Translations under genes and position numbers: made by a program
Source: Gammaproteobacteria bacterium
GTDB lineage: Bacteria > Pseudomonadota > Gammaproteobacteria > Thiomicrospirales > Thiomicrospiraceae
DNA: 43,454 nucleotides
NCBI GenBank assembly: GCA_014763665.1
Contig: JACXUY010000009.1
Coordinates: 1 to 43,454, forward strand
Reading direction: 5' to 3'
The notes under the pieces: model-generated
The model's database searches: none
The model's input: the letters and a program-made list of their open reading frames with translations, nothing else
Told to the model about the DNA's origin: nothing
Shown: positions 10,594-19,854 of the stretch, in pieces
Layout: every line of letters begins with the position of its first letter
Numbering within the stretch: the stretch's first letter is position 1

Positions 10594-12042
10594 ATGATTG
10601 CCAACCGCACCCACATTACTGGTAAACGCCTTTTTGTCATCGACACAAACGTATTGATGCATGACCCAATGGCATTATTTGCATTCGACGAACACGATTT
10701 ATTCATTCCCATGGTGGTACTCGAAGAGTTAGATGCCAACAAAAAAGGGATTTCCGAAATTGCTCGCAACGTTCGTGAAACCAACCGACTATTAGATCAA
10801 TTAATTGGCAGTGCCAGCGCTGCAGAAATCGAAAAAGGTCTACCTTTAGCAAAAATTGCGAGTATGGGTGTGGGCAAGAATAAACCAGTGGGTAAAGGGC
10901 GTAAGGGCAATCCTGGGAAATTGTATTTTGAAACGCGTCCACTCGATTTTGACCTTAATGAAATTTTCCCGACGCATAAAGCCGACAATACCATTCTCAA
11001 GTGTGGGTTAGCACTGCAGCAACTCGATCCAAAAACACACGTTACGCTCGTCACTAAAGACATTAACATGCGCATTAAGGCATCAGCTGTCGGTTTACAT
11101 GCCGAAGATTATTTTAATGACAGTGTTGTTGAAGACAGTGATTTACTCTACACAGGCATGCGCGAGCTACCTGATGACTACTTTGAAAATAATGGTAAGG
11201 CCCTAACTTCTTGGCAAGAAGGCAGCAATACCTTCTATCGCATTGAAACGCCGACAGATAATCCTTGGGTACCAAATGAATGCCTACATACCGCCGATGA
11301 ACATGGCTTCTCCGCCATCGTTGACCATATCGATGGCAACAGCAGTGTACTGCGCTTCCCACGCGACTATCGCAACAGTCACCAAGGCGTATGGGGTATT
11401 CATGCACGCAATCGGGAACAAAATTTCGCGCTCAATTTTTTAATGGATCCCGACATTGATATTGTTACCTTACTTGGTCCGGCTGGTACAGGTAAAACCT
11501 TACTCGCCCTAGCCGCTGGACTGGCACAAACGATTGACGATAAGCGTTATAACGAAATTATTATGACACGTGCAACTATTCCCATTGGTGAAGATATCGG
11601 TTTTTTACCTGGCACGGAAGAGGAAAAAATGGCACCATGGATGGGTGCACTCATGGATAACCTTGAAGTACTCACCCAACCTGAAGAAGGTGCGGCCAAA
11701 TGGCAGACGAACACCACGCAAGAAATCATTAAACAACGCATAAAAATTAAGTCAATGAACTTTATGCGTGGCCGAACCTTCTTGAATAAGTTTATCATCA
11801 TCGATGAAGCGCAGAACCTAACACCCAAACAGATGAAAACGCTCATTACGCGCGCTGGTCCTGGAACTAAGATGGTGTGTATTGGTAACATTGCCCAAAT
11901 TGACTCACCTTATTTAAGCGAGACGACTTCAGGATTAACCTTTGTGGTCGATCACTTTAAAGGATGGCAACACAATGCTCACATTACCTTACAGCGTGGT
12001 GAGCGTTCTCGTCTAGCTGACTTTGCTCAACAAGTAATGTAG
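10594..12042 (+). CDS. PIN domain-PhoH family ATPase
   Basis: The 482-aa protein joins an N-terminal PIN-type nuclease domain to a PhoH P-loop ATPase. The PIN part shows VIDTNVL (D17) and VVLEELD (E44/E45/D47), the acidic residues expected to bind metal. The ATPase domain starts near 280, with Walker A GPAGTGKT at 295-302 and Walker B-like FIIIDEAQN, followed by the PhoH-typical TPKQMKTLITRAG. PIN-PhoH proteins of actinobacteria have been described as RNA helicase-ribonucleases; the same activity is inferred here. The gene is distinct from the shorter phoH/ybeZ. AGGAGCG precedes the ATG closely. The gap downstream contains an unusual structured element. Confidence 0.93.
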   Translation: MIANRTHITGKRLFVIDTNVLMHDPMALFAFDEHDLFIPMVVLEELDANKKGISEIARNVRETNRLLDQLIGSASAAEIEKGLPLAKIASMGVGKNKPVGKGRKGNPGKLYFETRPLDFDLNEIFPTHKADNTILKCGLALQQLDPKTHVTLVTKDINMRIKASAVGLHAEDYFNDSVVEDSDLLYTGMRELPDDYFENNGKALTSWQEGSNTFYRIETPTDNPWVPNECLHTADEHGFSAIVDHIDGNSSVLRFPRDYRNSHQGVWGIHARNREQNFALNFLMDPDIDIVTLLGPAGTGKTLLALAAGLAQTIDDKRYNEIIMTRATIPIGEDIGFLPGTEEEKMAPWMGALMDNLEVLTQPEEGAAKWQTNTTQEIIKQRIKIKSMNFMRGRTFLNKFIIIDEAQNLTPKQMKTLITRAGPGTKMVCIGNIAQIDSPYLSETTSGLTFVVDHFKGWQHNAHITLQRGERSRLADFAQQVM

Positions 12043-12093
12043 GTAACTGCTAAAAACCTCACTTCGCTTGATTTTTAACTTCCCTAGATTATT

Positions 12094-12219
12094 TTAGCTG
12101 GTGGAAGGGTATTCGTAATTTAGCAACCTGCTAATAAGTTCAACCCTTCCCCTTCGCTTTAGTGCTGCGTAAACAGGATTCCCGTCCCATAAGCATTTGA
12201 GCGGAGCTATCCCAGCTAA
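12094..12219. ncRNA. Candidate structured RNA or repeat element: three concentric stems
   Basis: Three perfect inverted repeats are nested. The outer stem is TTAGCTGG (12094-12101) with CCAGCTAA (12212-12219). The next is GGAAGGGT (12103-12110) with ACCCTTCC (12143-12150). The inner is TTAGCA (12120-12125) with TGCTAA (12129-12134) around ACC. About 60 nt between the second and outer right arms holds weaker pairing. On the minus strand the second stem is followed by ACCA, giving a tRNA-acceptor-like end. The minus strand also has an open frame without an ATG (it would read GIAPLKCLWDGNPVYAALK), ending at the TAA within the outer stem. It fills the 217-nt gap between the PhoH-like gene and the next gene. 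I recognise no known RNA family. It may be an independent RNA, a UTR structure or a dispersed repeat. Confidence 0.45.
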
Positions 12220-12259
12220 GCATTAACCGATGGAACAGTAATTTTTTGGAAGTGATCAC

Positions 12260-12847
12260 ATGATTCTCAATCAAATCGCCCTCAACCCCACAGTTCATTA
12301 TCAAAACTTGGCGCAACACATTCAACAACAGTTGCCAACCTTAATGATTCCGGTCTTTAAGCTAGATCCAACCAGTGCAAGCCGCGCTGTGGAAGAATTA
12401 CCGCTAGATCATGAAAAATCATCAGAACACATTGATCTTCACACGCTAGTCGATTATCAACCATGGTTAAAACGCTTTTATCGTCAGTGGCAAATCGCAC
12501 TCAAACAGAATTTTTCGCAACTAACGGCCACAAACAACCTTTCTGAACCAGATCACTGGCATCCAGAAAACACAGCTAAAGCCATGAATGCGCTAGCACT
12601 TTCTTACACAGGAAAACTCATTCACTTGTTAAAGCAGGATCCCATCACCGTTGTCGATAGAACGACCTTGTTGTGGCGAGATACTTGGCAAAGCTTCCGT
12701 CATGAACTTGAACTTCAACAAACTAAGTTACCCATATTGCAGGCATTAGATAATACTGCCCACTATTTTCAACAGTTTTGGTTAGAATCTTGGCTACACA
12801 TTGCCGAATTACAATCGACCTTACCATCAAACCCCAACAGAAAATAA
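12260..12847 (+). CDS. Hypothetical helical protein, 195 aa
   Basis: I do not recognise this family. The protein is rich in Gln, His, Leu and Trp, looks mostly helical and has no signal peptide or transmembrane segment. GGAAG lies 8 nt before the ATG. Tryptophans recur in pairs (HWHPEN, LLWRDTWQSF, QFWLESWLH), suggesting helical packing or an interaction surface. It lies between the structured element and a small membrane-protein gene, all on the plus strand. A loose resemblance to helical accessory proteins such as PhaE is not good enough for a call. The intact frame, ribosome binding site and conserved direction support a real gene. Confidence 0.6.
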   Translation: MILNQIALNPTVHYQNLAQHIQQQLPTLMIPVFKLDPTSASRAVEELPLDHEKSSEHIDLHTLVDYQPWLKRFYRQWQIALKQNFSQLTATNNLSEPDHWHPENTAKAMNALALSYTGKLIHLLKQDPITVVDRTTLLWRDTWQSFRHELELQQTKLPILQALDNTAHYFQQFWLESWLHIAELQSTLPSNPNRK

Positions 12848-19504: not shown

Positions 19505-19854
19505 TGGTGGAAGCGGGGGGAGTTGAACCCCCGTCCGAAGATGCTTAACTATCGGTTCTACATGTGTAGTCTGTTTATTATTCTCGTTGTCGCTCAACCC
19601 AACAGACAGGGAGAACAACAACACAGTCTATTAAGTTTAGCCACGACTTATAGACATCGTCATGACGATCTGATGTAAATGACCTTGGTAAATTAGCCCA
19701 TCAGAGAGCTAATGGCAAGGGCCTCGCGTTTAAGCGGCGAGAGCGAAGTTTTCGTCGTTTGCGACTATATTTTGTCAAATGGATTTACGAGGTACCCGAC
19801 ACCCTCGACATGCCCCTTTAGCCTTACTATCCCCGTCGAAGCCAGTACGCCCCC
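19505..19854 (-). ncRNA. ssrA: Transfer-messenger RNA (tmRNA), one-piece
   Basis: Read on the minus strand the RNA begins GGGGGCGTACTGGCTTCGAC and ends with GGTTCAACTCC, then CGCTTCC-A-CCA encoded in the DNA. The 5' GGGGGCG pairs with 3' CGCTTCC to form the acceptor stem with two G-U pairs. The tag frame at 19730-19762 reads ANDENFALAA then TAA. tmRNA with SmpB rescues ribosomes stalled on broken mRNA and marks the product for Clp and other proteases. The tag has Phe where E. coli has Tyr (ANDENYALAA). No rearrangement into two pieces is seen. Its neighbours are clpA, convergent, and a small periplasmic protein gene upstream. smpB is not in the window. Confidence 0.97.

Follow-up and report, generated by a model that had tools for sequence, protein, structure and literature searches.

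The intergenic region downstream of a phoH-like gene in an uncultured gammaproteobacterium of the Thiomicrospiraceae (contig JACXUY010000009.1; "the window" below is the whole stretch of 43,454 nt that was analysed) possesses three perfect inverted repeats packed into 126 nt (positions 12094-12219). This raises the question of what kind of element lies here. The initial annotation, made from the sequence letters, held the arrangement to be hard to explain by chance and suggested a dispersed structured repeat or an RNA family. According to our analysis, what lies here is almost certainly an old, worn copy of a MITE (non-autonomous DNA transposon) rather than a novel type of RNA. The suggestion was thus right as to the dispersed repeat, which has dozens of copies with covarying stems, and wrong as to the RNA family, since the repeat is a transposable DNA element.

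All three inverted repeats were recovered by a repeat search of the window: an outer one of 8 bp (12094-12101/12212-12219, TTAGCTGG/CCAGCTAA), a second one of 8 bp (12103-12110/12143-12150, GGAAGGGT/ACCCTTCC) and a third one of 6 bp (12120-12125/12129-12134, TTAGCA/TGCTAA). The plus strand of the 126 nt folds with -46.3 kcal/mol (z -5.2; equalled by 0 of 200 dinucleotide shuffles) and the minus strand with -44.7 kcal/mol (z -3.7 versus dinucleotide shuffles). The fold of minimum energy has two arms inside the outer stem, one formed by stems 2 and 3 and the other by positions 12152-12206. The stems had been described as concentric, which is not strictly the case; stems 2 and 3 make up a single arm standing next to a second one.

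A first DNA search with the region gave weak partial matches, both in the genome it comes from and in those of two congeners. A search with a covariance model built from 15 copies (matches with E ≤ 0.01 were counted) yielded 75 copies in the own 2.17-Mb genome and 70, 20 and 32 copies in three congeners; no copy was found in another 71 genomes, of which 43 belong to the same family. Furthermore, a pattern scan for the internal stem across 85,000 species genomes, which may not include the closest records to the window's own genome, gave true matches only in Thiotrichales bacterium 35-46-9; three further single matches look like chance. As far as searched, the family is therefore confined to one genus of uncultured Thiotrichales. 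Because several contigs start or end at element copies (C148, C169, C187 and C231 of the window's own genome, G000; C29, C30 and C14 of the congener G003), the repeat probably breaks assemblies, and the copy numbers are probably minima.

The family consensus of ~155 nt is GGGAACCTCTAAAAACC-(TCGCTTCGCTgA)-GGTTTTTAGmGTCCCTAGTTTATTTTTTGGCTGGTGGAAGGGT-(~35 nt)-ACCCTTCCCCCAGAACCCCCAACCCTATAGGTTTTTAGAGGTTCC. It begins left of the interval 12094-12219, and the natural unit at this locus is larger than that interval and shifted (12042-12213). The element consists of a left repeat, an inverted copy of this repeat (both together forming the left hairpin), an internal hairpin, a C-rich stretch and a right repeat. 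It is non-coding, and its ~155 bp leave no room for a transposase gene (134 copies read with their flanks). A second subfamily (L074, L079, L081, L122, L126, L127, L128, L130, L137, L139), whose ends are AGGAAGGTCTGAATAATGCGC...CAGACTTCCT, with a right end like TTTTGCAGAGCTTCCTT, is mixed with the first one in the same genomes, and a variant of ~174 nt (L072, L073, L087, L120) has an extra small hairpin TTTTCGTTCCGAAATCTTCGGTA in the loop of the left hairpin. Short versions without the internal hairpin can be found in G003 (L156 1501-1596, 96 nt, with perfect TAGA duplications; L145 2418-2503, 86 nt), as can a solitary left hairpin of 46 bp that lies between perfect TAAG duplications (L190 2001-2046; G003:C24:17291-17336). 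This hairpin might be a mobile unit of extremely small size. However, as the right repeat and the inner copy of the left one are direct repeats, it is likely the product of a deletion between them, and this simpler explanation led us to reject the solo hairpin (L190, L217) as an independent mobile unit.

Evidence of mobility comes from the ends and flanks of the copies. Both ends, with the terminal inverted repeats GGGAACCTCTAAAAACC...GGTTTTTAGAGGTTCCC, are recognisable in 108 copies, 39 of which possess perfect 4-bp target duplications exactly at the junctions, versus 1.75 expected when right flanks are shuffled among copies (maximum of 8 in 1000 shuffles). In G003, where the copies are most alike and youngest, 15 of 21 have a perfect 4-bp duplication. 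The targets that were duplicated are rich in A and T, and their last position is preferentially A (24/39). When the joined flanks of twelve insertions were compared with the genus, clear empty orthologous sites with a single 4-mer were found for AGGA (97% identity over 240 nt), TACA (96%), TTAT (93%) and AGTA (93%), and empty sites with more diverged flanks for ATTA and TCAG. Because of its terminal repeats, its 4-bp duplications, its high copy number and its presence or absence between related genomes, we assign the family to the MITEs; indeed, it is short and without a transposase gene, and its sites occur empty as well as filled.

One insertion illustrates what such a duplication can do: L120 1501-1674 (G001:C102) is inserted in AGGA, the apparent ribosome-binding site of the next gene, and the duplication restores the site. 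The gene behind it reads MAINRDMRILVVDDFSTMRR and is CheY-like by eye.

The copy in the window was aligned end to end with the family consensus by way of L004, its better preserved orthologue in G001 (Table 1), and the covariance model (R1) matches it at 12042-12182 with 74 bits (E 2.6e-15). In G003 and G002, phoH ends with ATG TAA, there is no element, and the next gene starts ~50 or 5 nt further on. In the window's own genome and in G001, the gene reads ATG TA/G or ATG TA/A (the slash marks the left end of the element), and the element's first base serves as the last of the stop codon; in the window copy, the G of TAG is supplied in this way. The element at the phoH site is thus an old insertion shared by two sister genomes and absent in two congeners. 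Its flanks have no matching target duplication (TGTA versus AGCT), as expected if the insertion is old, and we infer that this copy is now inert and decaying. The protein encoded downstream has no Pfam or NCBIfam match.

Table 1. Features of the phoH-site element and its surroundings (window coordinates).
Feature	Position	Strand	Basis or remark
phoH2-like gene, PIN + PhoH ATPase	10594..12042	+	element inserted in stop codon; orthologues without element end with TAA
Whole degenerate MITE copy	12042..12213	+	covariance model hit, alignment via L004 to consensus, absence in two congeners
Left terminal inverted repeat GGTAACTGCTAAAAACC	12042..12058	+	first base is third base of phoH stop TAG
Left-end hairpin CTAAAAACC...TTTTTA	12050..12084	+	left terminal repeat, then inverted copy of itself; family structure and covariation
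T-rich linker, consensus TAGTTTATTTTTT	12085..12095	+	family consensus
Outer stem of the initial annotation, TTAGCTGG/CCAGCTAA	12094..12219	+	left arm is element linker; right arm is element right end plus host flank
Internal hairpin, conserved stem GGAAGGGT/ACCCTTCC	12103..12150	+	stem 2 of the initial annotation; family covariation
Variable apical stem of internal hairpin	12120-12125/12129-12134	+	stem 3 of the initial annotation
C-rich stretch, rearranged in window copy	12151..12193	+	22 nt absent from orthologous L004
Decayed right terminal inverted repeat, CATTTGAGCGGAGCTATCCC versus family GGTTTTTAGAGGTTCCC	12194..12213	+	alignment via L004
Downstream gene, 195 aa	12260..12847	+	conserved throughout the four genomes of this genus

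The anatomy of the family also changes the reading of the stems. The outer stem is confined to this site and has no counterpart in the family; as its right arm runs from the element's right end into the host flank and CTGG in other copies pairs with CCAG of CCCCCAG instead, it has most likely arisen locally by accident, even if it occurs in both sister genomes (G000 and G001). A tRNA-like ACCA end had been noted on the minus strand, yet ARAGORN detected no tRNA or tmRNA in 11900-12400, and ACCA is simply the complement of the family-invariant TGGT beside the internal stem. (The tmRNA gene of the window, at 19505-19854 on the minus strand with 220.7 bits, is an ordinary one.) The minus-strand frame GIAPLKCLWDGNPVYAALK does exist (12213-12151), but the impression that such frames recur in other proteobacteria was not borne out: it has one copy in the own genome, its best match among 274 Gammaproteobacteria has E 0.007 (chance level), and no plasmid match was found. 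This frame is unique to the window copy and runs mostly through the rearranged C-rich part, which contains 22 nt missing in the orthologous L004.

The two inner stems, in contrast to the outer one, are features of the family and are kept partly by compensatory changes. Across 108 copies, standard pairs make up 82% of cells in the left hairpin and in the internal and apical stems, and for 21 of 30 pairs some copies have changes at both positions. Covariation was 0.214 versus 0.124 in shuffled and ≤0.085 in slid controls, in an alignment of related copies that was fitted to the structure tested. A clear case of a preserved internal stem is that of the G003 subfamily, CTGAAGGAAGG/CCTTCCTTCAG (CTGAAGG/CCTTCAG in place of CTGGTGG/CCCCCAG). 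Rfam covariance models have no match to the region at the gathering threshold or even at E ≤ 10, in agreement with the remark that it fits no known RNA family. A single copy, missing covariation or an Rfam match was to count against the original suggestion; what was found is many copies, covarying stems and no Rfam match.

How do other explanations fare against these data? That the inverted repeats are a chance arrangement in a single intergenic region can practically be dismissed: the outer stem alone is indeed particular to this site, but the fold stands far outside the shuffles on the plus strand, and the dozens of homologous copies refute chance for stems 2 and 3. A REP/REPIN-type extragenic palindrome moved by a RAYT-like single-strand transposase would share the hairpins, the high copy number and the extragenic location, but is extremely improbable in view of the clear terminal inverted repeats, the 4-bp target duplications and the empty sites. 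Palindromes of this type come without target duplication, and to our knowledge terminal repeats together with target duplications and empty sites are not expected from a REP/RAYT mechanism. A family of structured RNAs that act in cis or in trans (as leaders, attenuators or small RNAs) and have three functional stems is also very unlikely in our view. The double-sided changes and the preserved internal stem of the G003 subfamily would suit such an RNA, as would the prevalence of sense over antisense orientation between codirectional neighbours (51 versus 27 copies, with neighbours called by open frames; one-sided binomial 0.004, with orthologous shared sites counted separately). However, the copies occupy every gene context, including convergent (20) and divergent (19) pairs, they adjoin unrelated housekeeping genes, their presence differs among sister species with target duplications at the sites, and the outer stem is not common to them. 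Furthermore, compensatory changes could also arise by DNA hairpin correction (template switch), which could mimic selection on the stems, and the window element has no promoter-like site on its plus strand. A 5'-leader or attenuator in particular was considered when the first 18 copies seemed uniformly sense, and was rejected with the full set in all contexts.

The preferred reading as a MITE leaves the question of why so many copies sit at stop codons. In 39 of the 64 copies with a nearby upstream stop, the left end lies 0-7 nt from it, and in 18 of the 64 the element supplies the third base of the stop (11 TAG, 7 TAA); these 18 correspond to ~14 independent sites, as they include four pairs of G000-G001 orthologues. 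Most simply, this reflects the survival of insertions that leave the protein intact, favoured by a target often ending with TA and a first element base G or A, which restore the stop. A portable transcription terminator, that is, a mobile element whose copies would be retained since the left hairpin ends transcripts after the stop, is a possibility to be taken seriously, if an unlikely one. Besides the clustering just behind stops, it is favoured by terminator-like left hairpins in 34 of 131 copies, on either strand and by a simple rule, versus 0.5% of shuffles. Nevertheless, only a quarter of the copies qualify, the T run is paired inside the stem, a standard terminator scan called none in two copies (that of the window included), and survival of gene-sparing insertions gives the same placement. 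It is quite unlikely that the element is actually shaped to enter stop codons, as a mobile "stop plus terminator" cassette of low host cost. In such a cassette, the AT-rich 4-bp target often ending with TA and the first G or A would rebuild TAG or TAA, the terminator-like hairpin would directly follow the rebuilt stop, and hairpins working in mRNA may favour retention.

As for the mechanism, terminal repeats and duplications of fixed length imply a DDE transposase. The MITE would have been moved by such an enzyme, provided in trans and working on the terminal repeats, and the source of the enzyme may now be lost from, or unassembled in, the four genomes. Transposases of PF01609 and PF13586, the two families searched, are absent from all four genomes; as these are all draft assemblies, multi-copy insertion sequences could be missing from them. 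IS5-type elements have a 4-bp YTAR target, a GGAAGGTGCG-like repeat and a DDE_Tnp_1 transposase. The target of the present family is 4 bp and AT-rich but not YTAR, and PF01609 is absent from the four drafts. The ends of the second subfamily (subfamily B; GGAAGGTCTGAATAA, AGGAAGGTCTGAATAA) presumably resemble IS5-type ends and provide a lead. Surviving copies would be those mainly between genes or at stops, where the first base can restore the stop thanks to the AT-rich target, and in some copies transcription of the upstream gene may end at the left hairpin.

Small mobile sequences of this general kind are well known in bacteria (reviewed in PMC2229807). The closest described element in habit is QMITE2 of Coxiella burnetii, a MITE of 150-190 bp with tens of copies, stable hairpins and large and small versions, which lies mostly in 3' untranslated regions and overlaps gene 3' ends by 1-10 bp (PMC5896051). 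It is likewise gammaproteobacterial and similar in size, copy number, hairpins, 3' location and gene-end overlap, but its description sets it apart, with direct repeats of 7-11 nt and a GTAG REP (PMC5896051) as against the 4-bp duplications here. MITEAba12 of Moraxellaceae (~113 bp, non-coding, with 16-bp terminal repeats, AT-rich targets and recent bursts; PMC6382973) is similarly short and non-coding, with terminal repeats, AT-rich targets and recent bursts in some strains, whereas it has 9-bp duplications, a parent (ISAba12), weak secondary structure and no reported orientation preference (PMC6382973). Correia/NEMIS and RUP are short intergenic MITEs with terminal repeats, many copies and base-paired transcripts; most of the reviewed elements have 5'-TA at their termini, and an IS630 parent was proposed for RUP (PMC2229807). 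They share the short intergenic form, the terminal repeats and the high copy number with our family, which differs in its GGGAA ends and 4-bp target. The CIR repeats of Caulobacter also have two hairpin arms joined by a linker and are partly MITE-like, with unexplained mobility (PMC2229807), whereas terminal repeats, duplications and empty sites are demonstrated in the present family.

As the family was found neither in Rfam nor in genomes outside the genus, and the literature search revealed no paper on MITEs of this group, it is apparently undescribed: apparently a new MITE family within a well-known kind, and not a new kind of system. It offers unusually clear evidence of movement and a concrete case in which an interrupted stop codon is rebuilt by the insertion itself. 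Annotators of this genus also gain an explanation for a set of structured intergenic regions, which might otherwise pass for new RNA families or short genes.
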